The notes beneath the pieces were generated by a model. That model was not told where the DNA came from and did no database searches. It saw only the letters and a list, made by a program, of their open reading frames with translations. A program made the translations under genes and the position numbers. DNA of 39,586 nucleotides from a virus. Of this stretch, positions 3,253 to 39,379 are shown in pieces (positions within the stretch are counted from its first letter, which is position 1; each line of letters begins with the position of its first letter). The stretch is taken from the IMG/VR virus record IMGVR_UViG_3300018026_000134, positions 1 to 39,586 of that record. The stretch is one strand, 5' to 3'.

Positions 3253-3539
3253 TAGAGAGCCTCCCCATATTGGAACGGTGGGCTAGGCATGTGGTGGATG
3301 ACCTGTATCACCCCTTGCAGGTTGAATGGCCGGTTGGCGAACAGCAGGTACCGATTGTTTACGGCGTCGTAAGAGGCATTTTGAATCACCAGCGGTATGC
3401 CATCCACGTAAACCTCCACATCCACCGTGGGGTCAAACTCTACCGGTGGGCTGGTAGGCTTAATAAGCGGACCGATGTAGTTGCCCAACAGGAGTTGGAT
3501 GCGGTTCGGATAGGGCGCATTGGTAACGGCGGTCAGCAT
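3252..3539 (-). CDS. Small virion-associated protein of unknown function
   Basis: This 95-aa protein has no family I recognise. It looks beta-rich, with DVEVYVDGIPLVIQNASYD followed by RYLLFANRPF, a layout like a small domain displaying hairpins. It is coupled on both sides by TAATG overlaps, to the 403-aa SWIM protein upstream and the 598-aa Ig-domain protein downstream. It is therefore clearly translated as part of the same operon and is probably structural. No cysteine motif or membrane segment is seen. Confidence 0.65.
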   Translation of the reverse strand: MLTAVTNAPYPNRIQLLLGNYIGPLIKPTSPPVEFDPTVDVEVYVDGIPLVIQNASYDAVNNRYLLFANRPFNLQGVIQVIHHMPSPPFQYGEAL

Positions 3540-4738
3540 TATTCCCCACTCTTAAGGAACTTCAAAAACTCCTCGTATCCTTCTTCGGAAGCATACTTCT
3601 CAATCATGCTCATCTCCAAGCTTGTGCGCTTGCGGAGTAGTTTCTTCCACCACTCACCGGGTATCTTCTCCTGCAATCGCTCTAACCACCGTCTCGGTAG
3701 GTTGGGCTTCTTCCTTTGCTGGAGCTTCTTCTCCTCTTGCTTGATAAGGTCGTTAAGGTCCGGCTGTTTCTTGGGAGCGGGGGCTGGCGGCGGTGTAACA
3801 TTTGTGGCCTTTTCATCCCGTTTGACTACCTGCTGCTTGGGTGGTTGCGGAGGCTTGGGGGCCGGTCCCTTCGGCTTTGGCTCCATGGGCTTGGGAGCCG
3901 TGGGTTTGTTCAACGGCGGCAAGGCGGGCGGTTGCTCCCCCTTACCCCTCTCCAACTTCTCTGTCTCTTCCTCCAGAAGGTCGTCAATCATCTCCTTCTG
4001 CTTGTCGGGGTCTGTGGTCTTCACAATCTGGTCAATTTCTTTGCGCTTGCGCATCTCTTCCTGACGCTCTTCCAGCCGAATGCCCTTCTCAGTTGGGATT
4101 TCCTCCTCCAACCGCTTCTTGTTAAGCTCCACCTGCCGCTTGCGCACAATGTTCTGGATGTTGTGCTGAATAGCGGGCAGGATGCGCTCGAAGACCGTCT
4201 TGACATGCTTGCAGATAACGAAGTTGCCCCGGAGGTCTAACCGTTCTGTGGGGGCTTGTAGAAGAGGCCGGGGCTGCCCATGCAGACCGTCCCGCTGGTG
4301 GAGATTCCATTGTGCGCCCCAATACAGGAATGCCGGGCAGGAGCAGGAGACCCGGACATCAATCTGCCTTGCATCCTGTGTTTTTTCCACCTGACTTAAA
4401 TCGAACTGGACTTGCACGTCGTGTCCCTTGGGGTCGGAATAATTCTCGTGGCAGGTGACCTTGTAGGCAAGGTAAAGCTCCTTGGGTTTGGAACTGATGG
4501 GCTTGACCTCGCACCCGGCCCGGCGCTTGACGGAAAAAGCATTGGTCTGCCGGATGAGTTCCGGGAGGGAGATAGCTACCTTGGTGAAAGGTGGAGAAGT
4601 GAGGGATATGGGGATGCTAATCCATGTGCCTTGTTTGACTTGCCATGGGTTATATCCTCCCAGAATCATCCTGCTGAGCATCTGCTGGAAGTCTGGGGTC
4701 CAGTCTGGTGCGAGATTTTGCACTTGCGCTAAAGCCAT
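3539..4738 (-). CDS. SWIM zinc-finger-like protein with long charged tail
   Basis: I place the start at 4738 (MALAQVQN) because GATGAGGGAGTCT lies directly upstream; an in-frame ATG at 4750 has no ribosome-binding site. The product is 399 aa. Residues ~130-200 contain VSCSCPAFLYWG followed about 40 residues later by FVICKHVKTVF, the CxC...CxH arrangement of a SWIM zinc finger. The rest is Lys/Glu-rich coiled coil (~210-275), then a Pro/Lys-rich linker and a basic C-terminus. SWIM fingers bind nucleic acid or protein. Similar SWIM proteins sit among structural genes of other large phages (from memory), but the molecular job is unknown. It is followed by the 95-aa gene with a TAATG overlap. Confidence 0.75.
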   Translation of the reverse strand: MALAQVQNLAPDWTPDFQQMLSRMILGGYNPWQVKQGTWISIPISLTSPPFTKVAISLPELIRQTNAFSVKRRAGCEVKPISSKPKELYLAYKVTCHENYSDPKGHDVQVQFDLSQVEKTQDARQIDVRVSCSCPAFLYWGAQWNLHQRDGLHGQPRPLLQAPTERLDLRGNFVICKHVKTVFERILPAIQHNIQNIVRKRQVELNKKRLEEEIPTEKGIRLEERQEEMRKRKEIDQIVKTTDPDKQKEMIDDLLEEETEKLERGKGEQPPALPPLNKPTAPKPMEPKPKGPAPKPPQPPKQQVVKRDEKATNVTPPPAPAPKKQPDLNDLIKQEEKKLQQRKKPNLPRRWLERLQEKIPGEWWKKLLRKRTSLEMSMIEKYASEEGYEEFLKFLKSGE

Positions 4739-4767
4739 AGACTCCCTCATCTATGAACTGAAAAGCC

Positions 4768-5397
4768 TTATGAATTTCTCTTACGTTTTCCCCGCATTAA
4801 GGAACGAGAGATTTCGGTGTGTTTCTTACCAAAAAACGGGTTACTTTTACCGGACATTTTTTGACGAATTTTTTCCTTTGTTGTTTCACTACAGGGAATC
4901 CCCCTCCTCCCTTTACTAATTTTTCGGCATGTCTCTAAGGTTGGTTTTCTTCCAAGACTAGCTTGACGTAGCTTTTCTATGGTTTCCAGCGTAAATTTCC
5001 GACTACTATTCCACTCTCTCAATGCCTGTTTTCGTTCTTTGGTCCACGCTTTTGACATTTTTAATCTGGTCTCAAGGGTGTGACTGCCGGTGTGTCCCTC
5101 CCCTCCGCTACAAAGATTATATCCTATATCCGGGTAGTGAGACCCGAGAGCTTTTATAAGAAATCGTTCCCAATAACAAAGTTCTTCATTGGTTTGTAAA
5201 TCAGAAATTACGGGGTGAATGCTCCATACAGAAGAGGGACATTTCCACATAGCTGAAAAAAGGTGGGACCCTCCTCGATAATTTCCTTTGATAGCATCGC
5301 TAATTTTTCTTCTTAAATAAGAGTTTAAGTTAGAACCGATGGTTTTGCCAACGTAGATTTTAAGAGTTTCTTGATTAACTATGATGTAAACAAACAT
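4768..5397 (-). CDS. GIY-YIG homing endonuclease with NUMOD3 repeats
   Basis: This is a 209-aa free-standing endonuclease. The N-terminus has the GIY-YIG signature in the form VYIIVNQETLKIYVGKT, then a conserved E in CYWERFLIK and a YNLCSGGEGHTG segment that closes the nuclease domain. After residue ~105 come NUMOD3-type DNA-binding helix repeats (TRLKMSKAW, TIEKLRQASLGRKPT, TKEKIRQKMSGKSNPFFGKKH). The gene is visibly AT-rich compared with the flanking structural genes, as expected for a mobile gene. It sits between intact genes (138 aa upstream, SWIM protein downstream), so it is intergenic and not intronic. A weak GGGGA ribosome-binding site precedes the ATG. Confidence 0.9.
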   Translation of the reverse strand: MFVYIIVNQETLKIYVGKTIGSNLNSYLRRKISDAIKGNYRGGSHLFSAMWKCPSSVWSIHPVISDLQTNEELCYWERFLIKALGSHYPDIGYNLCSGGEGHTGSHTLETRLKMSKAWTKERKQALREWNSSRKFTLETIEKLRQASLGRKPTLETCRKISKGRRGIPCSETTKEKIRQKMSGKSNPFFGKKHTEISRSLMRGKRKRNS

Positions 5398-7492: not shown

Positions 7493-8125
7493 TTAGAGCA
7501 GACTTGCTACGCCCAGCCACGGCTCCTGAGTGCTGGGGACGTGAGTGCAGATGCCGACCGGGATGTAGCCGTTCGTTCCGCCAGTGGTGCCAGAGTGTGC
7601 CTTATCGGTGTAAAGTCCAACGTTACTCGTGGAATTTCCACCGCAGTACACATAAGCACCGGCGACAAACGCTACGCCAGCCTGCGTGTCATACGACTCT
7701 TGGTTGATGTTGCCCTGCCAGAGACCACGAACCACTGGGGCCTTCTTGCTGCCCGCAGGTCCAATGGCACCGGAGAATTCACCGGGGCCGTTGATGAGGG
7801 CGGCGAACGGAACATTGCCCGCTGCTACTGTGGTTGTGGCGTTGGAGGTATACTGCCTGTCACCGGGGTTGAACGGACCCGTTCCAATGATGCCCGCAGT
7901 TGCAGTCTCGGTGCTGCCGAGAGTGCTGTCTACGTTACAAGGAACGATGACCGTTTCCACGTTGGAGGCGTTCTGGGGGTTTCCTGCGATAGCCATGATA
8001 CGACCTGACAGATACCCTGCGTTAATCAGGGTGGTCTGGTCAGTTCCGGGGTCTCCGGTGAGGAGAACGTCGGGCGTAGCATTAACGCTATCGTTTTGAC
8101 CGTAATAGACTAATTTAAGTCCCAT
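7493..8125 (-). CDS. Probable capsid accessory or decoration protein
   Basis: This 210-aa protein is rich in Gly, Thr, Ser and Asn with almost no charge clusters, typical of beta-structured virion proteins. It opens MGLKLVYYGQNDSVN and contains many short turns (GGNSTSNVG, SGTTGGTNGY). It lies directly upstream of the major capsid gene with only a 62-base gap, so the two are probably co-expressed. That position and composition fit a head decoration or stabilisation protein, but the family is not recognised, so the role is inferred. Confidence 0.6.
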   Translation of the reverse strand: MGLKLVYYGQNDSVNATPDVLLTGDPGTDQTTLINAGYLSGRIMAIAGNPQNASNVETVIVPCNVDSTLGSTETATAGIIGTGPFNPGDRQYTSNATTTVAAGNVPFAALINGPGEFSGAIGPAGSKKAPVVRGLWQGNINQESYDTQAGVAFVAGAYVYCGGNSTSNVGLYTDKAHSGTTGGTNGYIPVGICTHVPSTQEPWLGVASLL

Positions 8126-8254
8126 AAGTTCTTTCCTTTGTTGAACTTAGGAGATTTTTGTCTCCATGTAGAAGGTTGGATTAACCTGTATACCCAATCC
8201 TCTGTCTAGGAGTAGACTCGGGACTATAGGAAAACAGGCTGCTTCATACATTTA

Positions 8255-8339
8255 AAGGAGTTGATAGCAAAGATATTATTTTACCGACATTTGTCGATAA
8301 AATAACAGCTTGGCCATAAAACACAACTATCCACTCCTT
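8255..8339. promoter_or_regulatory. Nested inverted repeats between divergent genes
   Basis: The 234-base gap between the capsid operon (leftward) and a rightward GIY-YIG gene holds two inverted repeats. An AT-rich near-palindrome has 14-base arms with one mismatch (8276-8289 and 8292-8305, core CCGACATTTGTCG). It is bracketed by AAGGAGTTGATAG (8255-8267) and CTATCCACTCCTT (8327-8339), which pair at 12 of 13 positions. No T-tract follows either arm, so an intrinsic terminator is unlikely. An operator or a structured 5' leader is possible. No confident sigma-70 promoter was found here. Confidence 0.45.
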
Positions 8340-8359
8340 CATAAAGAGGGGATGGTAAA

Positions 8360-9010
8360 ATGCAAATCTACTTGGTGACTAATCTTGTTAACAACAAGAT
8401 GTACGTCGGACAAACAATTCAGAGCGTAGAAAGGCGATGGCGGAAACACCTTAGCAACGCTAGGATGGGGCAACAAGACCGTCTCTATCAGGCCATCCGC
8501 AAATATGGACCAGAGGCATTTATAGCAGAGGGCCTAACCCGATGTAATAGCCTGGAACAGATGAACAACCTGGAGAAGCTCTGGATTGCCTTGCTTGGGA
8601 CTTACGATTACGAATCAGGATACAATATGACGCCTGGAGGAGACGGACGCCCCGTACTTTGCACAGAAGAAACAAGAAAAAAGATAAGTAAAACACGCAA
8701 GGGCCAACCTTGCCCGCAATCAACGAAAGAGGCGGTTGGTAAACGGCATAAGGGGAAACCCAAGCCCATATCTCAACGGCAGAAGATGGCTGCCCACTGG
8801 AACACTGAAACTGAACAGGGTAGAAACCGACGTTCAAAACAAGCGGATGTTGCCCGCCAAGTTAACGCTATCGAAAATGTCAAACTTAAGGACTACACCT
8901 GTCCCACCTGTAAGAAAGAGTTTAAACAGGTGACAAAGGGAGCATATGGCGGTCATCGCAAGGCGTGTCTGTTTTGGAATATTCCCTATGAGGGTACTGT
9001 TATCGAATAA
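8360..9010 (+). CDS. GIY-YIG homing endonuclease, opposite strand to its neighbours
   Basis: This 216-aa endonuclease has the nuclease signature IYLVTNLVNNKMYVGQT at residues 3-19, followed by RRWRKHLSNAR, E in NNLEKLWIALLG, and GYNMTPGGDGRP. NUMOD3-like repeats follow (TRKKISKTRKGQPCP, TKEAVGKRHKGKPKP). The C-terminus carries a Cys/His zinc-finger module (CPTCKKEF ... GGHRKAC). It is transcribed rightward inside a leftward block, between the scaffold-like gene and the 210-aa/capsid pair. The site AAAGAGGGGATGGTAAA precedes the ATG. Being in the opposite orientation, it must rely on its own promoter. Confidence 0.9.
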   Translation: MQIYLVTNLVNNKMYVGQTIQSVERRWRKHLSNARMGQQDRLYQAIRKYGPEAFIAEGLTRCNSLEQMNNLEKLWIALLGTYDYESGYNMTPGGDGRPVLCTEETRKKISKTRKGQPCPQSTKEAVGKRHKGKPKPISQRQKMAAHWNTETEQGRNRRSKQADVARQVNAIENVKLKDYTCPTCKKEFKQVTKGAYGGHRKACLFWNIPYEGTVIE

Positions 9011-9065
9011 GGCAGGACGCCCGAAACTACTGTTAATGGCGGCTCCGGGCGCATGGTGGAAGGAC

Positions 9066-9106
9066 TCATAAAAACTAACCCCCGGCGAGTGATAACTGCC
9101 GGGGGT
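9066..9106 (-). terminator. Intrinsic terminator after the scaffold-like gene
   Basis: A 9-bp stem (ACCCCCGGC at 9078-9086 with GCCGGGGGT at 9098-9106) with an 11-nt loop is followed on the minus strand by TTAGTTTTTATGA. It lies about 20 bases past the stop of the 786-aa gene. It would stop leftward transcription before it runs into the plus-strand GIY-YIG gene. Confidence 0.8.
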
Positions 9107-9124
9107 GGGGTTGCACCTGCGAAA

Positions 9125-11485
9125 TTAGTCATTCGGGATACCGTCGTTGGGTCCGAACATCGCATCGCCAATGTTGATTGCCTTTGGCGTGGAGGCGTCG
9201 GAAGCCATCACCGGCTTAATTTTCTTAAGCGTCGGCTTGGCGGCGGGCTTGGCGGCTGCCTTGGGAGCGGCTGCCTTACCTTGGGACTGAGGAGTCTGTC
9301 CGGGGGCGGGTTCCTTCAAAGCGGGAACGGCGTCCTGCGGAGTACGGACGGGACCAGTGCCAGTAGAGTTTTCCTTGAACTCCTGCGGCTCGGGGGCGGC
9401 GTCAGTGATGACTTCGGCCCACAGGTCGTCCTTGTGGTCTTCCTCGTTGTTACGGCTATCGGCGGAAGTTTCCTTCTGCTCGAAGTGCTTAGCGGCGGTT
9501 CCGTCGTAGGCCGGGATGACTTCCATACCCGCCACGGAGGCGGCGGTACGGACCTGACCAAGGAGGGTTGCCAACGGGTCGTCATCGGCACCTTGACGGC
9601 TGAACATGGAGGCTACGACATCCCCGAATTCCTGAATGCCGTTGTTGTCCAGAGCAGCTTCCATGGTAGAGGCGGCGGACGGCGAGAAGAAGTCAGCACC
9701 GGAGTTGTCACCTTCGTTGGCGAGGGCGGAGGTCTTCTCCTCCATGTTGTCCTCGTTAAAGATGTTCTCAAGGTTGAGTTCCTGTTCGGCACCTTCGCCT
9801 TCGAGGTTCTCTCCTTCACCTTCAACGGACTGCCCCTCGCCTTCGAGAGTCTCACCCACTTGCTCAAGTTCCTCACCTTCGGTTTCAAGGACGCCCTCGG
9901 GCACGTCTTCTCCCTCGGTCTCTTCTTGAGCAACCGCTTCCTCAAGCTCGTGGATTTCGGTTACAAGTTCCTGTGCCTTTTCGCCGAGGTCCTTAATCTT
10001 CTCCTCGGTCACCATCTCACCAGCACCGGCTGCATCACCCATCGGTCCCTCGGGCGGCAGTCCACCTTCGGCGGGTGGCATTTCACCTTCCACCGGAGGC
10101 ATATCAGCGGGCGGCATCTCGCCTTCCACGGGTGCTGCATCCATGGGGGGCGCTGTATCTACTGGAGGTGCGGCGGGCGGAGCGGCGGGGGCTGCCGGGG
10201 CGGCTGCCTCGGGTCCGGGATACGCCTTCTTACTCTTAACGGCGGCTGCCTTGGCGGCGGTACACTTGGCGCACATCTTACCACCCTTGCAGTTCGGGCA
10301 AGTGGCTGTCTTGGCGGCTGCCTTGGGCGCTCCATCTCCACCTTCGGCCTTGGATGCACCTTCCGATAGATTCACCGTGTCTCCGGGGCGCTCACCAGCA
10401 CCGGGACGCTCGGCTGCTTTACCGGCATCGACTTCCTTCGGCTCCGAGGCGGTACCACCACCATGACCACGCCCGTCATTATAGGTCGGGGTCTGCGGTC
10501 CGGCATCCTGCCGGTCATCCGCTTTCTTGGCGGAGGCATTAACGGCCTCACCCTTGATTTCGGACTTCACGGCGCTCTTCTCTGCCGCCAAGTCACCGGG
10601 CTTATCAGCCTTCTCGGTGTCGTTCATTTCGTCCCTGTGGACTTCCTTGAGCGTACCGAGGTCAGCAAGCCGGGTATAGTGGGCGTTGACGGCGGTCTGC
10701 TTGAGAGCAGCCTTCAAAGCGCTCGTCTTGTTGGCGAGCAGGCTTTGAGCAAACGCTTTCTGGGCTTCCACCGGAGCAGTGGGCAGCATCGTCTTGGCGA
10801 TAGTCCAAGCAGCAGCCACACGAGTCTTGGCTTCCCGCTTGATAGCGTCCTTATCCGCCTTGACAGCGGCGATGGATTCCTTCATTGAAACCTTAGTGTC
10901 TTTTGCCATAATCTTTCCCCTCTCGGAGTTAGGGCTGTTGCTGCCCTTCTTATCAGGTATTTGATAGTTCTGTTTTTTGCTCGCCATCATGGGTTGGGCG
11001 GGAGCGGGCGGTGGTTCCGGGGGTACCCCAGTGGTTCCCTCGGGGGTTTGCGGTGGTTCGGCGGGTATCTCAGCGGGTGGTTCTGCCATGGGTGCCTCAG
11101 CGGGTGATACTGGTGCTTCGGCGAGAGGGGGTTCTGCGGGTGGTTCTGCCTCGGGGGTTAGGCCGGGGCCGGGAGGAGTGGTATTTCCCAGCTTATCCCC
11201 GGTAGCGATATCTCCGAGGGTCTGGTCCAGTCCATCCAACTCACTCTTGAGTTCAGGAGACCAAGGACCTTGCTTGAAGCGTTCCCAAGCGTTCAGGAAC
11301 TCTACTTTCTCCTTCATGCCTTGGATATCCTTCTCGATTTCCTTACGCTTTTCAGCGAGATAATCGAAAGTCTTCCCACCCTCACCCTCGGGAAGAGTCA
11401 TATCCAAGTTCTTGATTTCATTGTCCAAAGCGCCAAGCTCTGCAACCTTGCGCCTATATACGGAGATGAGTGGATTTATTACCAT
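9125..11485 (-). CDS. Scaffold/core-like low-complexity protein
   Basis: This 786-aa protein sits between the maturation protease and the capsid genes, the usual place of a phage scaffold or prohead core. Residues ~1-90 are a coiled coil (LDNEIKNLDMTL, EKRKEIEKDIQGMKEK). Residues ~95-165 are Pro/Ala/Glu-rich. An Ala/Lys-rich helical segment starts at residue 193 (MAKDTKVSMK). A CPNCKGGKMCAKC zinc ribbon lies near 395, and a Pro/Ala linker follows. A very acidic stretch with repeated EGE units spans ~520-600, and the tail is Ala/Lys/Pro-rich. The start overlaps the protease stop (TAATG). Scaffold identity is inferred from position and composition, not from sequence similarity. Confidence 0.65.
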   Translation of the reverse strand: MVINPLISVYRRKVAELGALDNEIKNLDMTLPEGEGGKTFDYLAEKRKEIEKDIQGMKEKVEFLNAWERFKQGPWSPELKSELDGLDQTLGDIATGDKLGNTTPPGPGLTPEAEPPAEPPLAEAPVSPAEAPMAEPPAEIPAEPPQTPEGTTGVPPEPPPAPAQPMMASKKQNYQIPDKKGSNSPNSERGKIMAKDTKVSMKESIAAVKADKDAIKREAKTRVAAAWTIAKTMLPTAPVEAQKAFAQSLLANKTSALKAALKQTAVNAHYTRLADLGTLKEVHRDEMNDTEKADKPGDLAAEKSAVKSEIKGEAVNASAKKADDRQDAGPQTPTYNDGRGHGGGTASEPKEVDAGKAAERPGAGERPGDTVNLSEGASKAEGGDGAPKAAAKTATCPNCKGGKMCAKCTAAKAAAVKSKKAYPGPEAAAPAAPAAPPAAPPVDTAPPMDAAPVEGEMPPADMPPVEGEMPPAEGGLPPEGPMGDAAGAGEMVTEEKIKDLGEKAQELVTEIHELEEAVAQEETEGEDVPEGVLETEGEELEQVGETLEGEGQSVEGEGENLEGEGAEQELNLENIFNEDNMEEKTSALANEGDNSGADFFSPSAASTMEAALDNNGIQEFGDVVASMFSRQGADDDPLATLLGQVRTAASVAGMEVIPAYDGTAAKHFEQKETSADSRNNEEDHKDDLWAEVITDAAPEPQEFKENSTGTGPVRTPQDAVPALKEPAPGQTPQSQGKAAAPKAAAKPAAKPTLKKIKPVMASDASTPKAINIGDAMFGPNDGIPND
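10907..10925 (-). promoter_or_regulatory. Internal in-frame ribosome-binding site in the scaffold-like gene
   Basis: Inside the 786-aa frame, GAGAGGGGAAAGATT directly precedes an ATG at 10909 (MAKDTKVSM). Starting there would give a second product of 594 aa lacking the N-terminal coiled coil and Pro/Glu linker. Internal starts that make a nested scaffold product are known in other phages (for example lambda C/Nu3). Use of this one is inferred. Confidence 0.45.
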
Positions 11486-30100: not shown

Positions 30101-30979
30101 ATGTTCATTTATCTTATTGTCAATCACGAAACCGGGAAGTACTACGTTGGACAGCACAAAGGGGATAACCTTAAAGCCTACTTGCAGCGTAAATTTTCCG
30201 CCGCAAAACACAATGAGGGTAAGGGGGGTTCTTATTTATTCGCCTCTATGCGTAAACATCCCCTTTCCTCCTCTTGGTCCATTCATGCCCTTCGTTCGGA
30301 TATCCAAACAAAAGAAGAGCTTAACGAAACCGAGAGGGATTTTATCAAATTTCTGCGGTCACAAGACCCCGAGTATGGGTACAACATTTGTAAGGGTGGG
30401 GAAGGACATACAGGACCGTTATCTCAAGAAACTCGTCAAAAAATATCTACTCACCACAAACAAATGTGGACTAACCCTGAAATAAAACAACATTTCTTAA
30501 CACAAATGATAGTGGGGCATAGGAATAGTTCATCGTGGCATACCCCGGAAGGTCTTGAAAAAATTAAACAGGCAATTGCTGGATTAAAACGCACGCCTGA
30601 GACATGTAATAAAATACGGATTAAACGTCTGCTACAGCCAGACCCCCGGCGTGGGAAACATCATTCAGAGAAAACGAAAAAACGTATTAGCGAGGTCAAA
30701 AAAGGTACCCCAAGTTCCTTCCGTGGAAAACACCATAGTGATGAGTCAAAAGAGAAAAACCGAAAAGCCCATTTAATAAATCTGCAAGGACAAGATTTTG
30801 GAAACGTAATTCCCATGTCTTTAGTAGCGTCTAATCCCCAATCCAAGTGGGCGGTTAAATGCATTGTTTGCGGGTCCGAGGGAATAGTGAGGGGGGATAG
30901 AATCAGAAGTGGTGATTCCGCTTTCATGAGAGCACACTCTGGGATACATGAAGTCTCGAATAGGGGGATACAAAACTAA
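30101..30979 (+). CDS. GIY-YIG homing endonuclease with NUMOD3 repeats
   Basis: This 292-aa protein follows TAGGAGGAAGGTTC. The nuclease half (MFIYLIVNHETGKYYVGQHK, SSSWSIHALRSDIQT, ETERDFIKFLR, GYNICKGGEGHTG) is almost the same as in the gene at 27249. The C-terminal half has several NUMOD3 repeats (TRQKISTHHKQMW, TCNKIRIKRLLQ, TKKRISEVKKGTPSSFRGKHH) and a late CIVCGSEG. It is AT-richer than its structural neighbours. The last codons GGATACAAAAC-TAA copy the end of the upstream structural gene, and the stop overlaps the next ATG (TAATG). Confidence 0.92.
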   Translation: MFIYLIVNHETGKYYVGQHKGDNLKAYLQRKFSAAKHNEGKGGSYLFASMRKHPLSSSWSIHALRSDIQTKEELNETERDFIKFLRSQDPEYGYNICKGGEGHTGPLSQETRQKISTHHKQMWTNPEIKQHFLTQMIVGHRNSSSWHTPEGLEKIKQAIAGLKRTPETCNKIRIKRLLQPDPRRGKHHSEKTKKRISEVKKGTPSSFRGKHHSDESKEKNRKAHLINLQGQDFGNVIPMSLVASNPQSKWAVKCIVCGSEGIVRGDRIRSGDSAFMRAHSGIHEVSNRGIQN

Positions 30980-32706
30980 TGTACCTCTACCATTGCACCT
31001 CCACTGACCGAGTAGTAAGCATCCAGCATAAAGGGCTACAGCCTTCAATGGACCCACATTGGGGAGGAGACTTGGGAGATACTTCTCTGGGTAAAGTGTT
31101 CTTTGCTGATAACCCCCAGCACGCCTACTATTACGGTGAGATTGTCTTTCGTGACACCTTACAGTTAGAGGGAGCAGCGGGCGCTCCCATCCTGTTAAGA
31201 GTAAGAAACCTCCAAGGTATGGTACAGGACAAGCAAGATACCCACTCATTCTATGCCGAGAGGGTAATTCCCCCGCAAACCATTGAGATAATGTGGCATG
31301 GGTGGAAACCTATAAAGAGCGCCGGGGGATATTGGGATGAGATGGAGTACCGCCTCAATGACGATGAGAACGTTTATGAAGACTGGGAAGGTACCCCATT
31401 CGACAGTATAGAGGAAGTCTTGGCGGATGCCAAGGCGTCCATTCTAGCACCGGCTAAATCTGGAACTCTTAAAAGAGGGGACCGTATGCCAGATAAGACC
31501 AAACCCACTGTATGTTTTGTCCGCCACGGGCACACCCCCTATAACTCCTCTACCGGGGATTCCATGGATAGCCGCATCCGGGGATTCACCAATGTGCCCT
31601 TAGATGAGATTGGAAAACAACAGGCAGGGAAAACGGCCAAAAAATTTAAGGGTATGGATATAAAGGAGATATACTCCTCCGACCTTGACCGTGCCGCTTA
31701 TACAGCAAATGAAATAAAGAAGGTCACGGGGGCTAAACTCTACCTCATCCCCAACTTACGACCGTGGGACCTCGGAGATTGGGCTGGAGATACGGTCCGA
31801 GAACATATTGAGGAACTCGAACTCCTCCAGAAAAATATCGACCAAGCCGCTCCCGGAGGCAAGCCCTTCCGGGAGTTCTATGACCGGGCGGTCAGCATTG
31901 TCAAGTGGCTACAGGAGAGAGCCATAAAGCTTAACGGGAGGATAGTTGCTGTCACTCACTCCCGGTTTTTGAACTCCCTGCCCTGCATCATTTCCGAGGG
32001 TGACCCTACTACCGTACCTCTGGCTGGGGGAGCCGCCACTGGGCAAGTCATTGAAATTGAAAAGGTTGACGGAAATTGGGCTATGCGAACCCTTGATGAC
32101 GAGATTCAAGAAGTGGAAGAACAGAAGGCAAAATCCAAAGAAGGCGACTATACAAGCCATAAGAGAGGAACGCCCATGGGAATTTCTACGAAAGCAAGCG
32201 ATTTGGCGGCATTGGTATCAAAAACCGCCCAAGTATTGTGCGAGGGGGACCACCCCAACGCCGATTCCGACCTACAAGCCATGGTGGGCGACCCCACGGA
32301 TGTCCGTACTTCCACCTTTGCCCAGTTCCACCCCAATCCGGGGACCATGCAGCTTCCCAATCCTCTCAGCCCTATCGAGGGAGACGAGATTTTCTTCGCC
32401 TATATGCTGCCGGGGGCCGTATTCCAAGCTCATGATGGCAGCGAGTGGAACATCCTGTTTTATGACGGGGCCGACTCCATTCAGATTGAGAACCGCTGGT
32501 ACCCAAGGATTTCATGGTTTGTGTCCATCGGAGATATCCGGCGCAGCATTCACCAGTGGATTGAACCCATCACTCAGACCGTTCCGCCTCCGCCGCCCGG
32601 CGTCGATTACAGCGCCCTGCCGGTCAAGGTCATGGACAAGGAAGACAACATCGGAAGTGCTGATGCACTGACCGATGACAAGGTCAGCGGCGGAAGTAGC
32701 TGGTAA
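30979..32706 (+). CDS. Three-part protein: ART-like domain, histidine phosphatase, unknown C-terminus
   Basis: This 575-aa protein has three segments. Residues 1-~120 resemble an ADP-ribosyltransferase/KptA-type fold: LYHCTSTDRVVSIQHKGL, GKVFFADNPQHAYYYGE, PILLRVRN and RVIPPQTIEIM, with His5 and Tyr51-53 at the places of the H-Y-type NAD-binding residues. Residues ~175-380 are a complete histidine phosphatase (VCFVRHGHTPYNSS, IYSSDLDRAAYTA, IVAVTHSRF). Residues 400-575 are unrecognised and Pro-rich near the end. ATGs with good ribosome-binding sites lie exactly at both joints (31486, 32176), so separate shorter products may also be made. The ART call is tentative; the phosphatase is firm. Confidence 0.8.
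   Translation: MYLYHCTSTDRVVSIQHKGLQPSMDPHWGGDLGDTSLGKVFFADNPQHAYYYGEIVFRDTLQLEGAAGAPILLRVRNLQGMVQDKQDTHSFYAERVIPPQTIEIMWHGWKPIKSAGGYWDEMEYRLNDDENVYEDWEGTPFDSIEEVLADAKASILAPAKSGTLKRGDRMPDKTKPTVCFVRHGHTPYNSSTGDSMDSRIRGFTNVPLDEIGKQQAGKTAKKFKGMDIKEIYSSDLDRAAYTANEIKKVTGAKLYLIPNLRPWDLGDWAGDTVREHIEELELLQKNIDQAAPGGKPFREFYDRAVSIVKWLQERAIKLNGRIVAVTHSRFLNSLPCIISEGDPTTVPLAGGAATGQVIEIEKVDGNWAMRTLDDEIQEVEEQKAKSKEGDYTSHKRGTPMGISTKASDLAALVSKTAQVLCEGDHPNADSDLQAMVGDPTDVRTSTFAQFHPNPGTMQLPNPLSPIEGDEIFFAYMLPGAVFQAHDGSEWNILFYDGADSIQIENRWYPRISWFVSIGDIRRSIHQWIEPITQTVPPPPPGVDYSALPVKVMDKEDNIGSADALTDDKVSGGSSW
31474..31488 (+). promoter_or_regulatory. Internal ribosome-binding site at the phosphatase domain joint
   Basis: GAGGGGACCGT precedes an in-frame ATG at 31486 (residue 170, MPDKTKPTV), just before the histidine phosphatase domain begins. 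Initiation here would give a 406-aa product without the ART-like domain. Its use is inferred from the match to the Shine-Dalgarno pattern seen at other starts in this window. Confidence 0.45.
32162..32178 (+). promoter_or_regulatory. Internal ribosome-binding site at the C-terminal domain joint
   Basis: AGAGAGGAACGCCC precedes an in-frame ATG at 32176 (residue 400, MGISTKASDL), right after the phosphatase domain and a Lys/Glu-rich linker. Initiation here would give the 176-aa C-terminal domain alone. Its use is inferred. Confidence 0.45.
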
Positions 32707-33050: not shown

Positions 33051-34724
33051 ATGCTTGACTTGACGGGCGGGAATCTCGTCGCTTATCTCCGCAGAGTTAT
33101 CGAAGACGCCGTAAACCGGTCCCCCCGGTTCCGGTACACCCTTGGAGAAGTCTCTTCTCAGTACAACAACCTCATTCAATGGAAGGACGCTCAAATCAGC
33201 ATCAAGAACGTCACCTCCACCGGCAACCGCCTCTCTCCTGACTACTTCATGTGCAAGAACTACGGGCGGGCAATTCTTGCCAAAATCCAGAGCAAAGAGG
33301 GGGGATTCATTGAGTGGGTGCAAGAGGTGGATTCCACCCGGCAGACGCCCGCAGCCGGGGTATACTATTTCAATGTGGATGAGGTCAATGAGCAGACACG
33401 GGACGTAGACCTAACCATCCAGAAATACACATGGCAAGAGGGTAAGGTTGTCAACGCCCAAGGCTCCATCGTCTACTTCGCCCCCCAAATTGACGGCACT
33501 ACGGTCTCAGGGTATGTCTCAGGCAGGGGAAGCCCCCCAACGCCTCTGGAAACGGCTGTAAACGACGGCACGTGGCAAACTACGCTCGTTTCTCCTCCTG
33601 TGCCGGTAGATTTGCTCCTCGCCCCGCATTTTGGCTATTTGCTGACCGATACCCCAGCCGGGTTGGTCCTCTTCGCCGGGTCCCCACCCGTCCAGCTTAC
33701 TCCCCTGTTGGATTACTGGTATCAACAGACCGTCCAGCAAGTGGTATGCCAAAGTACCGTGGGAGGACAAGAAGTCGTTGGCATTCCGCTGGGCCTTGTG
33801 GACGTTCCGGGAGGCGGAAGCCCGCCGCAGATGGTTCAGACCCTCCTCTCCTTCACGCTTACGGACCAGAACGGCTACGAACTTATCAAAGGGAAGGATT
33901 ACACCTACTTTGCCAGCAATGATTGGCTGGAACTCTCTCCGTACACGCCGCCCGGAATGACCATTACGGCAAACATGGTCGTTAAGGTTGACCCCACGGG
34001 CGTACCGGGGACCAACCCGGAGAATATCCTACAGACGCAAGTGACGGAGGGAAACAGTCTAGCACCGGGGCAGGTATTCGTACAGACCTCTCTCGGAAAC
34101 TACACGTCACTCGTACCCAATACGGATGGGACTTGTACCTTGCCCACTCTTCTCTTGCCGGGGGAATGGTGCCGCTGGGAAGTTCGAGTAGATACAGGAA
34201 GAACAAAGGCCCGAGCCAAAAAGTACAACCTCAATGAGAATGTCCTCCCCGGCCTGCGGATAGCTATCGGTGACAACGTTCTCAAGGATGACCAAGTGGC
34301 TATCATCGTGCAGCCCTACACCGCCGAGACCTATGAGGTATACGGGAGCAAGGAGAACCTGACCTTCACCGTGGACTGCCGGGCAAATGACCTCCAGACC
34401 GCCTCCGACCTCAGCGAGTTGCTCCGCCGAGAGCTTCTCATCATGCGCCGGACGAATATGGAGGCAGACGGCATCACCTTGTTTGAAGCCAGCCGGTCGT
34501 ATGTGGGATTGCAGCGTGACCTCAGCGGCACCGCTCCACAGTTTGTCTACAGTCTGACTGTTTCCGCTATGGCAGATTGGAAAGTGTTTGTACCACTGGT
34601 CACCCGGCTGGTCACCTTGGAAATAACCAGCACCGCCACGGTGTCATCCTACGGTCCGGGTATATCGCTTACGCCCCGAGTCAAAGTGTTTGGCAACACC
34701 AAGTTCTTAGAATCTTACACGTAA
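33051..34724 (+). CDS. Virion structural protein (557 aa)
   Basis: The ATG follows TAGGGAGCATTT. The N-terminal ~130 residues (LVAYLRRVIEDAVNRSPRF, VEEV-type strands, YYFNVDEVNEQTRD) are followed by a long beta-rich middle with many Pro/Gly turns. A C-terminal domain reads GLRIAIGDNVLKDDQVAIIV, then ENLTFTVDCRANDLQTASDL, ELLRREL, and a final strand region. The last ~130 residues resemble a tail-terminator or neck-type fold in layout, but this is a guess. It is the last gene of the rightward block and converges on the RNA ligase remnant. Confidence 0.7.
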   Translation: MLDLTGGNLVAYLRRVIEDAVNRSPRFRYTLGEVSSQYNNLIQWKDAQISIKNVTSTGNRLSPDYFMCKNYGRAILAKIQSKEGGFIEWVQEVDSTRQTPAAGVYYFNVDEVNEQTRDVDLTIQKYTWQEGKVVNAQGSIVYFAPQIDGTTVSGYVSGRGSPPTPLETAVNDGTWQTTLVSPPVPVDLLLAPHFGYLLTDTPAGLVLFAGSPPVQLTPLLDYWYQQTVQQVVCQSTVGGQEVVGIPLGLVDVPGGGSPPQMVQTLLSFTLTDQNGYELIKGKDYTYFASNDWLELSPYTPPGMTITANMVVKVDPTGVPGTNPENILQTQVTEGNSLAPGQVFVQTSLGNYTSLVPNTDGTCTLPTLLLPGEWCRWEVRVDTGRTKARAKKYNLNENVLPGLRIAIGDNVLKDDQVAIIVQPYTAETYEVYGSKENLTFTVDCRANDLQTASDLSELLRRELLIMRRTNMEADGITLFEASRSYVGLQRDLSGTAPQFVYSLTVSAMADWKVFVPLVTRLVTLEITSTATVSSYGPGISLTPRVKVFGNTKFLESYT

Positions 34725-34784
34725 CCGGTCAATCTTCAATTCCATCCGCCCGTTCGCCGGTATTGACAATGACCTGTACCAGCC

Positions 34785-34898
34785 TCATTTCTTCGACCAC
34801 TCCCACCGCAAGTTACTGCCGTCGTATTTCTCAAAAGCGAGGCAGGGACTCCCGAGGGGAGCATGGGCTGACCCGGCGATTTCGGGGTAGTGTTTCAT
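34785..34898 (-). pseudogene. Truncated RNA ligase remnant (KxDG motif)
   Basis: A short minus-strand frame starts at 34898 with an ATG that overlaps the stop of the zinc-ribbon gene (ATGA). It encodes MKHYPEIAGS, and then FEKYDGSNLRWEWSKK. The K-Y-D-G-S-N core is motif I of ATP-dependent RNA ligases, where the Lys takes AMP. RNA ligases of this type usually continue R/K-G-W-Y; here a TGA stop occupies that position and the next codons read GWY, so a CGA-to-TGA change is likely. Only ~60 bases remain before the convergent structural gene, so the other ligase motifs are gone. The product would be 37 aa and catalytically dead. Confidence 0.65.
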
Positions 34899-35092
34899 GC
34901 GTATATACCGCAGTACTCTGCGTCAGGATGCTCTTTGCAATATGGGCATGGGTCCACATGTATGCGGCTCAAGACCCGTGCGTAATACTCAATGTAAGGC
35001 TCCTCGTATCTTCCCGTCATGGGGCGACCGCACTTTGCACAATACATGTCAACTTCTAAAGAGATGGTCCCCGCACTGCTCGTAATAGTCAT
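34895..35092 (-). CDS. Zinc-ribbon microprotein (65 aa)
   Basis: The start at 35092 (MTITSSAGTISLEVDMYC) follows GTGAGGGTAGT, where the ribosome-binding site overlaps the stop of the AAA+ gene. The product holds CAKCGRPM and about 28 residues later CPYCKEHPDAEYC, giving a Cys4 or Cys5 zinc ribbon. It is the last intact gene of the NAD+/ATPase operon and overlaps the RNA ligase remnant by ATGA. The function is unknown; a nucleic-acid or protein-binding adaptor is possible. Confidence 0.7.
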   Translation of the reverse strand: MTITSSAGTISLEVDMYCAKCGRPMTGRYEEPYIEYYARVLSRIHVDPCPYCKEHPDAEYCGIYA

Positions 35093-35099
35093 ACTACCC

Positions 35100-36092
35100 T
35101 CACTTGTTAAAGCCCGGATGCGAGACGCCTTCACTGGACTTCGGCTTAATCTTCATTCCCTTTAGCCGTTCGATGGTTTCGTCAAATGGCCGGTCAAGGC
35201 ATTGCGTAGCGACCACGAACTCCCGCAGGTGGGCAATGCTGAGGTCGTTGGTTTCCTTCGCCCAACCGGCTATTTGCTCTTTCGTGAATTTCTCTCCGAT
35301 GGCACGGGTCAGATACATGCGTCGGGCCGACTCGTCCGGCATAGGGACCTTTATCACTTCGTCAAAGCGGCTCGGGCGGTTGACGATACGAGGCCCGAGG
35401 TTCTCAGGGTAGTTCGTCGTGGCGATATGCACCACGTTGTTTACCTGATGCTCACCGTCCAGAAAGCTGAGCAAATCGTGTTCGCCCCGGTGCTCAATCA
35501 CTTCCTCAATATCTTCCATGATGACGATAAGCGGGCGGTCCGGCTCTATCCGGCGAAGGACCCGCAGAGCGTTGATTGCCATGCCCGGATGCTGGCAGAT
35601 GATGACAATACCGCCCCGCTTGATGAGCTTTTCAATAAGCAGAGCGACCGTCGCCGTCTTACCCGACCCGGCGTTGCCCCACAGGAGGATACCCCGCTTG
35701 AACAGGATGCCCATAGCGGAGAACTTCTCCTTGGAGTCCCAAAAGGTTTCGATGGAGTTGATGACCTGTTGAGTGACCGTCTCCCCAAGGTCATAAAGGG
35801 TGTCAGTCATTGGCTTGGACTTGAGGAAGTATATCCTCCCGTCGCTGTCCTGAGAGAGGTTGTAGACCCCCGGAGGAAGCGTATCAGTGGTCTTGGAGGA
35901 GGCGGAAAAGCTACCGTTAGGATGCACCTGCCACTGGCAGACGTTCATGGTGATGACATCATCGGATTCGTCGCTCCCCGTGGGACCTTGGGCGCTAGTC
36001 TTATTTCCACGGGGAACACCTTGGTCTGAATCCCTTGCTGCCTTATCGTTCATCCTACCTTGCAGTTCCGCCCAATCGTCGGATGCTGACAT
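35100..36092 (-). CDS. AAA+ ATPase
   Basis: The start at 36092 (MSASDDWAEL) follows GTGAGGGAGAAAAT, giving 330 aa; an ATG at 36116 overlapping the NadV stop (TAATG) is also possible. The N-terminal ~125 residues are a separate region with a small beta domain (GVYNLSQDSDGRIYFL). The ATPase core has Walker A (GNAGSGKT, 139-146), Walker B (PLIVIMED, ending 194), sensor 1 (ATTNYPENL) and an arginine-finger segment (NRPSRFDEV). This is the classic AAA clade seen in FtsH/BCS1-like remodelers. No protease or nuclease domain is attached. It is the third gene of the NatV-NadV operon; its substrate is unknown. Confidence 0.9.
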   Translation of the reverse strand: MSASDDWAELQGRMNDKAARDSDQGVPRGNKTSAQGPTGSDESDDVITMNVCQWQVHPNGSFSASSKTTDTLPPGVYNLSQDSDGRIYFLKSKPMTDTLYDLGETVTQQVINSIETFWDSKEKFSAMGILFKRGILLWGNAGSGKTATVALLIEKLIKRGGIVIICQHPGMAINALRVLRRIEPDRPLIVIMEDIEEVIEHRGEHDLLSFLDGEHQVNNVVHIATTNYPENLGPRIVNRPSRFDEVIKVPMPDESARRMYLTRAIGEKFTKEQIAGWAKETNDLSIAHLREFVVATQCLDRPFDETIERLKGMKIKPKSSEGVSHPGFNK

Positions 36093-36115
36093 ATTTTCTC
36101 CCTCACATTTCGGCA

Positions 36116-37546
36116 TTAGTCATCTTCCCGGTTGTAGCGGTCATAACCGCTGGAGATTTCCCGGACTTCGTCAAGGGTCTGGTGCCGCTTAATTACCCCA
36201 TCTTCAAATACTGTCTCCAGCTTATCTTCGTGGCCTGTGGCGAGCTTCATATCGTATTCCTGCTCCACAGTCTCGAATTCCCCATCCGACAGTTCCAAGA
36301 GGGAGAACCTGCCGCCGATGGATGCCTTGGACGGGTCGGTCTTAACCGTCTTGTGAACATCCTCCCACCGACCGTCCCGGCAGATAGCGGAGCATTTGAT
36401 GGCGAACCGCATGGTATCACGGTTCTGCTGTTGAAGCAAAGCACCGCCCATGCCGTAGCCCCAGTTGTCCATGGACCACCCGGCCCGTGTCAGGTGACTG
36501 TTGATGCGGCAGATGTTCTGGTAGTTGACTCCGTCGCCTTGGATGACCCGGACCTGCTTGGGCAGGACCTTCCAACCCTTAGCGTTTGTCTCGAAGCCAA
36601 ACTTCTCGGCAATGGCGTTGAACATGTCTTCAATGACGACACAGGGGTCACCGCTATCCGGGCGCAGGACCACCACGCCGTCACGCCGCAGAATTGTTTC
36701 CCGCAACTTGCCGCCGAAGATGTTAGCAACGGCGTTGTGGGTGTCGTAGCTGTCTACCACGAGCGCCACGAGGCCAGCCGGGACCTTCTCCAGCATGTTG
36801 GCATAAGCCTCAGCCTCGGCATCCTCACCCCACGAAGTAACGGTGGAGTGCTCCATCGCCGGGATGGAGAAACCGGCGCAGGGGCAATCGTAGAACTGCT
36901 CCAGAAGCGAAAGAGCCGCCATGGTGTCGGTGCCCATGAAATTGACAAGGTGGGCAGCCCCGCCGATAGCAGCGGTCTCCTGAGAGCTAACGCCCCTGTA
37001 TCCGAAGTCGTGCAACTTGAAACCGAGTCCAGCCGGGTCACCGGTACGCACAAGGTCCCTGCCGATGGTCTGCTTGATTTCAAATGACAGGGTCCCAACC
37101 GTGATGGGATACCACACTTGCAGGAGTTGGGTTTCCGCCCAGTTGGTCAGCCACGGGAATTCCTTGTCGGTGTTTTCGATGGTCATCAACACGTTCTTGA
37201 TGGGAACCACGGTACCCTCTTTAACCGCACGAATGCGCAGGGGCAACTTGCCGCCATGCTTTTCCAGCAACCGCATCCAGCCGTTGAAGTTGAATACTTC
37301 ATCGTTGCCGAAATGCCGGTGACAAATGCGGGCAGCTTCGTGGACATCTTTCTTGGTGAACACCTTGCCCTCGAAGTATGCGGCGAGGATGTATTGCAGC
37401 CCGGAGAACAATGTGTGCTGCCAGAAACCACCCCGGCTCATGAGGTAGCTGTACACATATTCCGCATCCGAAGGATACTGAAACCAGTGCGACAGCTTGT
37501 AGCTGTCTGTCCTTAAAATGGGGTTAAGCTTGAGTGCTTTGGGCAT
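36116..37546 (-). CDS. nadV: Nicotinamide phosphoribosyltransferase (NAMPT/NadV)
   Basis: It joins nicotinamide and PRPP to make NMN, the first step of NAD+ salvage. The start at 37546 (MPKALKLNPI) follows AAAAGGAGAACACAC; 476 aa is normal for the family. Hallmarks are DSYKLSHWFQYP (13-24), LHDFGYRGVSSQETAAIGG (178-196), VNFMGTDT, SIPAMEHSTVTSWG with the catalytic His at 233, VVDSYD, VLRPDSGDP and VIQGDGVNY. These match the vertebrate and phage NAMPT family almost residue for residue, and all key residues are intact. The 5' end overlaps the NatV gene by 23 bases and its stop overlaps a downstream ATG (TAATG), so the pathway genes are translated together. Confidence 0.97.
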   Translation of the reverse strand: MPKALKLNPILRTDSYKLSHWFQYPSDAEYVYSYLMSRGGFWQHTLFSGLQYILAAYFEGKVFTKKDVHEAARICHRHFGNDEVFNFNGWMRLLEKHGGKLPLRIRAVKEGTVVPIKNVLMTIENTDKEFPWLTNWAETQLLQVWYPITVGTLSFEIKQTIGRDLVRTGDPAGLGFKLHDFGYRGVSSQETAAIGGAAHLVNFMGTDTMAALSLLEQFYDCPCAGFSIPAMEHSTVTSWGEDAEAEAYANMLEKVPAGLVALVVDSYDTHNAVANIFGGKLRETILRRDGVVVLRPDSGDPCVVIEDMFNAIAEKFGFETNAKGWKVLPKQVRVIQGDGVNYQNICRINSHLTRAGWSMDNWGYGMGGALLQQQNRDTMRFAIKCSAICRDGRWEDVHKTVKTDPSKASIGGRFSLLELSDGEFETVEQEYDMKLATGHEDKLETVFEDGVIKRHQTLDEVREISSGYDRYNREDD

Positions 37547-38465
37547 GTGTGTTCTCCTTTTTGGTAAGATGTTGTTGCAGCATCTCGAAGAGAGGACGAT
37601 GCTCCTTCTCAAAATCCTCCACAGTCAATTTGCTTATGTCAAACCACTGCGCTTGGGAAAGGTCATCGCTGCCCTTCCCGCCCATAGTCATACTGTACGC
37701 CATGAAGAAGACGGTCTTGAAGCCCTCAGATGGCTCCGAGCGCCAGCGCCAGCTATCGACCTTGCGGGAGCCGACATATTCAAGGTCTTGGATGTCCAGA
37801 CCCGTCTCCTCGAACGCTTCCTTCTTGGCATCAGCCTCGAAGGTTGGCGTGCTGAATATTGCGTGCCCGCCCGGAAAACGCCAGAACGTGTCATCTGGCT
37901 TCTTGCCGAGGAGAAGCATCAAACCCTTCTCCGCCTTGTGCAGGATAGCAATGTCCACCACGGTGACAAGCCGGGGCCACAGTTGGTTCATGGCGTAGAT
38001 GACACCCGCCCGGAAAAATGGCGACTCCATGACATTGTTGGTCAGCTTGGCACGGATATCCGTGCTGGTAAGGGACGCCGGGACCTCTATCTCCAGTTCC
38101 TTGACCTTGTGCTTCCCGTGATAGAAGGGAGCGAATGAGTCCCTACTACCGTATAATACCACTTCGTGGGGAACTTCTCCCACGGCTTCGGAGATGCGCT
38201 CATCCAAACTGTCTGACCACTGTTCGTCGGTCTTGCAGTCCCGCAGGGGCAATACGGTGAACTCGGGGAACTTCGCCTGAATCATTTTCTTCCGAGTCTC
38301 GAAGTCTAACGGGTCGTGCCGGGTCGGACCGACCTTATTGCAGCCAAGGAATACGATAACCCGCTGGTGACGCCCACGCACAATACGAAAAATTTCAAGG
38401 TGCCCGTCATGGAGTTCGTGAACTTGGAACCGGCCAACTAAAACACCAAATGATGGTTTGGTCAT
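37524..38465 (-). CDS. natV: Bifunctional NMN adenylyltransferase / Nudix hydrolase (NatV type)
   Basis: This 313-aa enzyme has an N-terminal nucleotidyltransferase domain with GRFQVHELHDGH (11-22, the GRFxPxHxGH motif) and STDIRAKL near 133, which makes NAD+ from NMN and ATP. The C-terminal Nudix domain has GGHAIF followed by KKEAFEETGLD, the REUxEExGU part of the Nudix box with Lys for Arg; family members hydrolyse ADP-ribose and related dinucleotides. The same fusion occurs in phage KVP40 (NatV) and in cyanobacterial NadM-Nudix proteins. CAGGAGGGTATC is the ribosome-binding site, and it lies inside the end of the upstream HNH gene (ATGA overlap). It works with NadV. Confidence 0.95.
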   Translation of the reverse strand: MTKPSFGVLVGRFQVHELHDGHLEIFRIVRGRHQRVIVFLGCNKVGPTRHDPLDFETRKKMIQAKFPEFTVLPLRDCKTDEQWSDSLDERISEAVGEVPHEVVLYGSRDSFAPFYHGKHKVKELEIEVPASLTSTDIRAKLTNNVMESPFFRAGVIYAMNQLWPRLVTVVDIAILHKAEKGLMLLLGKKPDDTFWRFPGGHAIFSTPTFEADAKKEAFEETGLDIQDLEYVGSRKVDSWRWRSEPSEGFKTVFFMAYSMTMGGKGSDDLSQAQWFDISKLTVEDFEKEHRPLFEMLQQHLTKKENTHAQSTQA

Positions 38466-39379
38466 GATACCCTCCTGTATCGTTCCCCCAACTCATATCG
38501 TTCAATTAATTCAATGCACTGTCCCTGTTCCGTCCACTCTCTAGAAAACTTACTGATTAAACTGAACAACTCTTTAACAGACAAATCGGATGTTACTCTT
38601 TTCCTACAATTTTCGGAGTGTGTGACATACCGGCAATTTGCTGGATGCCTTACTATCTCCGGGAAAACCCCAAGAGCATATGCCTGTTTTCGAGACAGCC
38701 TATGGTCTCGTACCAACCCAGTCTTATTCTTAACTGGATGAAATATACCCAACTCAGAAACTCGTCTCTTTGTCTCTATTGGCTGAAATTGTAGCAAGTT
38801 AGCCCCATTAACCCAATTCGATAATTTCCGGTATAGAGCAAAATCAGACAAGTTTTCTAGCGGCGTCCAATTGCCGTGTTCCTCATTTACTTTTCTTACA
38901 CGTTTACGATATTCATCAGTAAACTTCTCCCTTGATTTAGTACCAATCTTTCTCTTGGATTTTTCTGAGCAAGGGTGTGATATTCCTTTATGGCCCTCAC
39001 TTAGCCGTTGTAACCATACGTTGCCAAAAACCCTTCCTCGGTTTGCTGTTCCCGCCCCCCATCGTTCTCTTGGGTTTAGCATACGTAGCGAAACCTGTTT
39101 AGAAATAAGTTTCTTTGTATGTTTAGACACTTTGTTTCCATAGTTGGGGTTACCGGTCCCTGAAAAGTCCCTACTCCTTTTTAGGTCCGAGCATTTCCTG
39201 CTACAGACTATACGAGGCATTTCATGCCCTGATATCAAAAATCTCGTGGAACATTCACTACACACCTGTAAGAACTGGTGCCGTTTCTTTTTCCCTTGAA
39301 ACCCCTCATTTCGTTTTAAGCATGTTCCTCGAATCTCATTATTTCCCACCCCTGTCTTGCAATGAAAGCACATTAACAC
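38462..39379 (-). CDS. HNH-type homing endonuclease with zinc finger and NUMOD3
   Basis: This 305-aa protein begins at a GTG (39379) eight bases after AGGAGG; the ATG two codons later is too far from that site. It has CFHCKTG, CSECSTRFL with CSRKCSDLK (zinc fingers), NUMOD3-like GNPNYGNKVSKHT and SEKSKRKIGTKSRE, and a C-terminal nuclease core: LVRDHRLSRKQAY, then HPANCRYVTHSENCRK, in which D-H...N...H supply the HNH residues. It is clearly AT-rich. A small stem (39389-39403, CTCCT/AGGAG) covers its ribosome-binding site. It overlaps the NatV start by four bases and carries NatV's ribosome-binding site in its last codons. Confidence 0.85.
   Translation of the reverse strand: MLMCFHCKTGVGNNEIRGTCLKRNEGFQGKKKRHQFLQVCSECSTRFLISGHEMPRIVCSRKCSDLKRSRDFSGTGNPNYGNKVSKHTKKLISKQVSLRMLNPRERWGAGTANRGRVFGNVWLQRLSEGHKGISHPCSEKSKRKIGTKSREKFTDEYRKRVRKVNEEHGNWTPLENLSDFALYRKLSNWVNGANLLQFQPIETKRRVSELGIFHPVKNKTGLVRDHRLSRKQAYALGVFPEIVRHPANCRYVTHSENCRKRVTSDLSVKELFSLISKFSREWTEQGQCIELIERYELGERYRRVS

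Follow-up and report, generated by a model that had tools for sequence, protein, structure and literature searches.

A predicted NAD+ salvage cassette with a divergent NatV subtype in an uncultivated, contractile-tailed phage

The window, that is, the whole 39,586-nucleotide stretch of DNA that was analyzed, comprises positions 1 to 39,586 of IMG/VR virus record IMGVR_UViG_3300018026_000134, which is linear and probably partial. A tail-sheath protein (phrog_2839, 2.4e-24) identifies the virus as a contractile-tailed phage. No match to near-identical DNA was found in the phage collection searched. The original prediction placed overlapping natV and nadV genes at 36116-38465, with genes for an AAA+ ATPase and a zinc-ribbon protein in the same operon. 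The coordinates were right, profiles, structure, and dN/dS exclude chance, and both neighbors do follow in the same direction. The genes and remnants at the locus, and two open reading frames on the opposite strand, are as follows (contigs used for comparison are designated L plus a number).

38462..39379, minus strand: homing-endonuclease-like ORF with NUMOD3, next to natV on its upstream side (NUMOD3 0.0011, under the cutoff; phrog_23051 9.2e-16)
37524..38465, minus strand: natV, 313 aa, predicted NMN adenylyltransferase (residues ~1-145) plus Nudix domain (~165-300) (Nudix 4.9e-10; PRK05379 2.4e-12; 2qjo by phmmer 4.2e-8; Foldseek)
36116..37546, minus strand: nadV, 476 aa, predicted nicotinamide phosphoribosyltransferase (NAMPT) (PRK09198 562 bits; active-site residues)
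35100..36116, minus strand: AAA+ ATPase, 338 aa (PF00004 7.9e-12)
34895..35092, minus strand: small zinc-ribbon-like protein, 65 aa, CxxC...CxxC (zinc-ribbon matches all subthreshold)
34785..34898, minus strand: RNA ligase stub, 37 residues, motif KYDGS (intact 206-aa homologue in L005, phrog_548 1.9e-6)
34724-34785, minus strand: C-terminal remnant of a HAD gene (intact counterpart at L005:9473-9808)
30979-32706, plus strand: ORF with a histidine phosphatase domain (PF00300, 8.3e-32)
30101-30979, plus strand: GIY-YIG/NUMOD3 homing endonuclease (phrog_314, 7.4e-23)

Read along the minus strand, the genes from the homing-endonuclease-like ORF through natV, nadV, AAA+, and zinc ribbon to the RNA ligase stub are joined by overlaps of 4 nt, 23 nt, and 1 nt, a 7-nt gap, and a 4-nt overlap; the AAA+ start overlaps the nadV stop (TAATG). 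Because these junctions are tight, they suggest that natV, nadV, and their neighbors form one transcript. The 476-aa NadV begins at an ATG with a GGAG ribosome site, and the 498-aa reading frame from a TTG is over-long. On the other strand, the N-terminal region of the 30979-32706 product appeared ADP-ribosyltransferase-like by eye, a putative assignment for which the predicted structure had a pLDDT of 36.

NadV is the more readily placed of the two proteins. Profile searches returned NAMPT_N (2.2e-31) and NAPRTase (2e-49) domains spanning its full length, as well as PHROG 448 (1.3e-148), and its score against NCBIfam PRK09198 lies well over the cutoff of 405 bits. Among solved structures, it matched Xanthomonas Nampt at 444 bits, rat NAMPT at 417, and Namat (9W5X/9W5W) at 228. 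NadV residues D207, H233, R295, and D297 correspond to D219, H247, R311, and D313 of NAMPT in human numbering, so that H233 is the equivalent of the catalytic His247 and D207 of the amide-specificity Asp219. The equivalents of NAMPT D16, Y18, F193, R196, D219, H247, D279, R311, D313, G353, D354, G384, and R392 are all identical in NadV. With these profile matches and an active site identical to that of NAMPT at these positions, NadV should make NMN from nicotinamide and PRPP. In two other contigs the match to nadV came in two pieces (L114:6025-7441, from a Sporocytophaga MAG, and L055, a viral contig), possibly reflecting a frameshift, an insertion, or decay.

The chain of NatV consists of a HIGH-type nucleotidyltransferase followed by a Nudix domain, the domain order of the NadM bifunctional enzymes. 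Its Nudix match was clear, whereas that to CTP_transf_like was weak (19.9 bits, just under the cutoff of 21). The PRK05379 bifunctional models recognized the protein, yet far under their curated cutoffs: the best of the NCBIfam PRK05379/NMNAT models gave 46.7 bits versus 409. NatV is thus a divergent relative of these model families, to judge from sequence, and falls outside their membership. The placement of the pair in the NAMPT, NMNAT, and Nudix families that had been foreseen was therefore obtained for NadV and for the Nudix half of NatV but not with the NMNAT models. By phmmer, the best solved relative of NatV was 2qjo. When its AlphaFold model (pLDDT 81, pTM 0.51, with uncertain domain packing) was searched with Foldseek, the six best PDB matches were all NadM enzymes (2QJO, 2R5W, and 2QJT; 1.9e-15 to 2.9e-14), which also bears out the predicted fusion to Nudix. 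Whole-chain TM-scores were low (~0.34), so how the domains are placed relative to each other in the model should not be relied on.

The motifs of NatV show where it departs from known enzymes. The adenylyltransferase motifs HxGH and [S/T]TxxR are present as HDGH and STDIR, and the NMNAT motif takes a variant form, GRFQVHELHDGH, with two extra residues before HxGH; at this position of the alignment KVP40-type NatV reads GRFR--PFHNGH. The same alignment indicated that a segment between the domains is missing from this NatV subtype. Across ~147 homologues, R12, H19, H22, T135, and R138, together with the E216/E219/E220 core of the Nudix box, are conserved, and H19, H22, R138, E216, E219, and E220 are nearly invariant. 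Compared with the Nudix consensus GX5EX7REUXEEXGU, the REUXEE core is KEAFEE, with K in place of R in this clade, and the glutamate of GX5E is replaced by P; this first Nudix-box glutamate is unconserved across the same homologues. The expectation that all catalytic motifs would be visible held for every NAMPT residue checked in NadV and was slightly too strong for NatV, with its two-residue HIGH insertion and missing first Nudix glutamate. Sequence and model together identify NatV as a probable divergent NMN adenylyltransferase-Nudix fusion. It is possible that the enlarged HIGH motif of this subtype might be accompanied by altered substrate use.

Both genes are under purifying selection. Between NadV and its L005 homologue, 16% of synonymous sites differ and no nonsynonymous sites do (dN/dS 0), and the remaining comparisons gave dN/dS of 0.13 to 0.17 for NadV and 0.08 to 0.17 for NatV, so that ~0.17 is the highest value. 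In a survey of gene order with the NatV-subtype alignment as the query, nadV followed closely behind natV, in the same orientation, at every one of 80 viral loci and at 73 of 80 genome loci. The two counts are not fully independent, since some loci in these sets overlap or nearly duplicate each other. Most genome loci came from Bacteroidota; a few candidate phyla and one Acidobacteria bin were also represented. These comparisons identify natV-nadV as a conserved cassette. In a tree built by a quick method, with many open forks, the window fell in a clade made up of phages alone, around which phage and bacterial sequences were intermingled. Because this intermingling requires at least four label changes, it indicates probable exchange of natV-nadV between phages and bacteria, in either direction. 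NadV was matched by 1,912 records of the phage database, versus 15 matching NatV, among them Tunturi_5 and huge uncultured phages.

The coupling to the AAA+ ATPase, which had been put forward as a new functional arrangement, was not supported. The protein has the AAA+ motifs (Walker A GNAGSGKT, Walker B VIMEDIEE, and RPSRFD). Its gene lies next to nadV in just two cases, the window/L005 lineage and L057. In L010 it is found on the upstream side of natV, in L203 the distance is ~4 kb, and in L017, L189, and L210 it is at least 40 kb (tens to hundreds of kilobases) from the cassette. The other long relative contigs searched yielded a few weak, general AAA+ matches but no AAA+ homologue, and none of the 80 genome loci had an AAA+ gene near the cassette. 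A conserved AAA+/NAD+ coupling was thus rejected as a general feature, with the gene near in four lineages, distant in three, and absent from most. The linkage of the zinc-ribbon gene is slightly steadier, but only within the closest group (L005, L008, L009, L010, L011, L057, and, interrupted, L006). In L012 to L018, relatives that are farther removed but keep the cassette, it is flanked by none of the AAA+, zinc-ribbon, RNA ligase, and HAD genes. The coupling of AAA+ and zinc ribbon to the cassette therefore appears mostly local.

The better-conserved downstream neighbor among close relatives, by gene content, is the RNA ligase, which the original prediction overlooked. It is present in every close relative (L005, L007, L008, L009, L010, L011, and L057), with a remnant in L006. 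A small DxDGT HAD-type protein, weakly matching phage polynucleotide kinases, is encoded near the cassette in L005, L007, and L057; the intact L005 copies lie at 8646-9266 (RNA ligase) and 9473-9808 (HAD-type protein). In the window, residue 37 of the RNA ligase is followed by an in-frame stop. A deletion of ~993 bp, whose ends share ~10 bp of sequence, took the remainder of the ligase and most of the HAD gene. The deletion is no assembly slip because the identical 131-base junction is found in three contigs of other metagenomes (L002, L003, and L004).

The cassette neighborhood has been invaded repeatedly. The NUMOD3-type ORF upstream of natV is confined to the window's own species group and is absent from L005 and other relatives. 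An HNH/endonuclease VII-like gene lies between natV and nadV in L007 (5382-6020), and in L006 a tyrosine-recombinase-like ORF, recognized by eye, interrupts the zinc-ribbon gene (~7530-11050). Directly upstream of natV in L005, the closest relative (1603-5072), are genes for an OmpA-fused putative binding protein, an NtrB-like permease, and an ABC ATPase. Of these genes, L007 (from 3759) and the species of the window (L003, 3611-3770) retain tail fragments of the ATPase only. The huge phage LR756500 encodes a homologue of the OmpA protein far from its own natV.

The pathway of phage NAMPT plus NMNAT is reportedly what Osterman and colleagues described in 2024 as NARP2. The window resembles it in having both enzymes of the route from nicotinamide to NMN to NAD+, phage encoded, adjacent, and overlapping, and differs in that its NatV is a divergent subtype. 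Published tests, as cited in PMC12300627, show counterdefense by NARP2; a similar role here would be by analogy. Schizotequatroviruses are reported to carry NARP2 in their core genome and in their virions (PMC12028318). A survey found NadV in 22% of medium phages and in 33% of jumbo ones, and all phages with NadM had NadV as well (PMC9503650); phage NadV and NadM were also surveyed in PMC7824862. Vibrio phage KVP40 likewise has a NadV homologue and an NMNAT-Nudix fusion. However, no nadV lies beside KVP40 natV within ~3.5 kb upstream or 4.5 kb downstream. In KVP40 NatV, moreover, the GRFR-PFHNGH spacing is standard and the segment between the domains is longer. The 308-kb Tunturiibacter phage Tunturi_5 has the same NatV subtype (37% identical) and the same natV-to-nadV order (gp218-gp217), but with ~117 nt between the genes and with no AAA+, zinc-ribbon, or RNA ligase gene annotated beside the pair. 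The NadM enzymes (PDB 2QJO, 2QJT, and 2R5W) share both domains in the same order and are the top structural matches, although identity is 16 to 20% and the HIGH motif and Nudix box of NatV are variant.

It is very probable that the locus is a phage NAD+ salvage cassette of this NadV-NadM (NARP2) kind. Since the pair is a conserved cassette, the two-step biochemistry and the NARP2 reading hold; the predicted two-step assignment is borne out by family and structure placements and by active-site residues, and the predicted NARP2-type pathway by the two genes occurring together with their order kept in all 80 viral contigs. One could instead suppose that the HIGH-type domain of NatV is some enzyme other than an NMNAT and that NadV works with the NMNAT of the host. 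Weak profile scores and the variant motif would be expected in that case, but the invariant coupling to nadV and NadM as the best match by both sequence and structure make it improbable. Still harder to credit is a NARP1-like system, in which the NadV-like protein would be a Namat using ADPR-PP rather than PRPP. Namat and Nampt do share a fold and catalytic core (PMC12774641, which identifies 9W5X/9W5W as Namat), but the bit scores favor Nampt approximately twofold, and the partner is an NMN adenylyltransferase, for which a Namat has no use. Among the window neighbors examined, which are part of its ORFs, nothing resembling a PRPP-synthetase-like adps was seen. On the scores and the partner gene, Adps plus Namat was rejected.

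General metabolic support deserves more weight, though we give it less than an even chance. The cassette could raise NAD+ for replication and host metabolism irrespective of defense, as many auxiliary metabolic genes do; the pair looks like an ordinary salvage pair on Bacteroidota and other chromosomes, and medium and large phages often carry NadV (PMC9503650). Because natV-nadV is chromosomal in many Bacteroidota, the pair alone is no defense-specific signature. The published NARP2 tests, as cited in PMC12300627, point instead to counterdefense. Supply of NAD+ to an NAD+-dependent DNA ligase of the phage was set aside: 11 relative contigs, up to 332 kb long, contained no such ligase (PF01653), although, being fragments, they could miss one. 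One obvious NAD+ consumer is thus unseen, and a purely metabolic reading is weakened, not excluded.

In the NARP2 reading, natV and nadV would be translated together, by coupled translation, and their activities would be those expected from gene identity, active sites, and fold. NadV would convert nicotinamide and PRPP to NMN, and the adenylyltransferase half of NatV would join NMN to AMP from ATP, giving NAD+. The probable targets of the Nudix half are ADP-ribose or related pyrophosphates, which it would cleave, or else NAD+, which it would trim. The likeliest benefit would be that NAD+ is kept up during infection, including when abortive-infection systems (TIR, SIR2, and similar) destroy NAD+ and release nicotinamide; for the window phage we infer this counterdefense role from the NARP2 papers. 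A broader repair island, combining NAD+ resynthesis with RNA-end repair by the RNA ligase and HAD protein, plus an ABC-type transporter in one relative, against self-destructive host defenses, is conceivable but rather unlikely.

The enzyme pair and its NARP2 role were already known (KVP40; Osterman 2024; Iyer 2022), and such pairs have been described in many phages. Beyond a divergent, widely shared NatV subtype in fixed order with nadV, and RNA-repair neighbors that the window virus has lost, little is new here. NAD+ reconstitution would thus extend to uncultivated soil phages, with the divergent NatV subtype traveling with NadV as a fixed-order cassette among phages, Bacteroidota, and other genomes. 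The subtype also gives a starting point for homology searches aimed at NARP2-type pairs whose scores fall far under the cutoffs of the standard NMNAT models.
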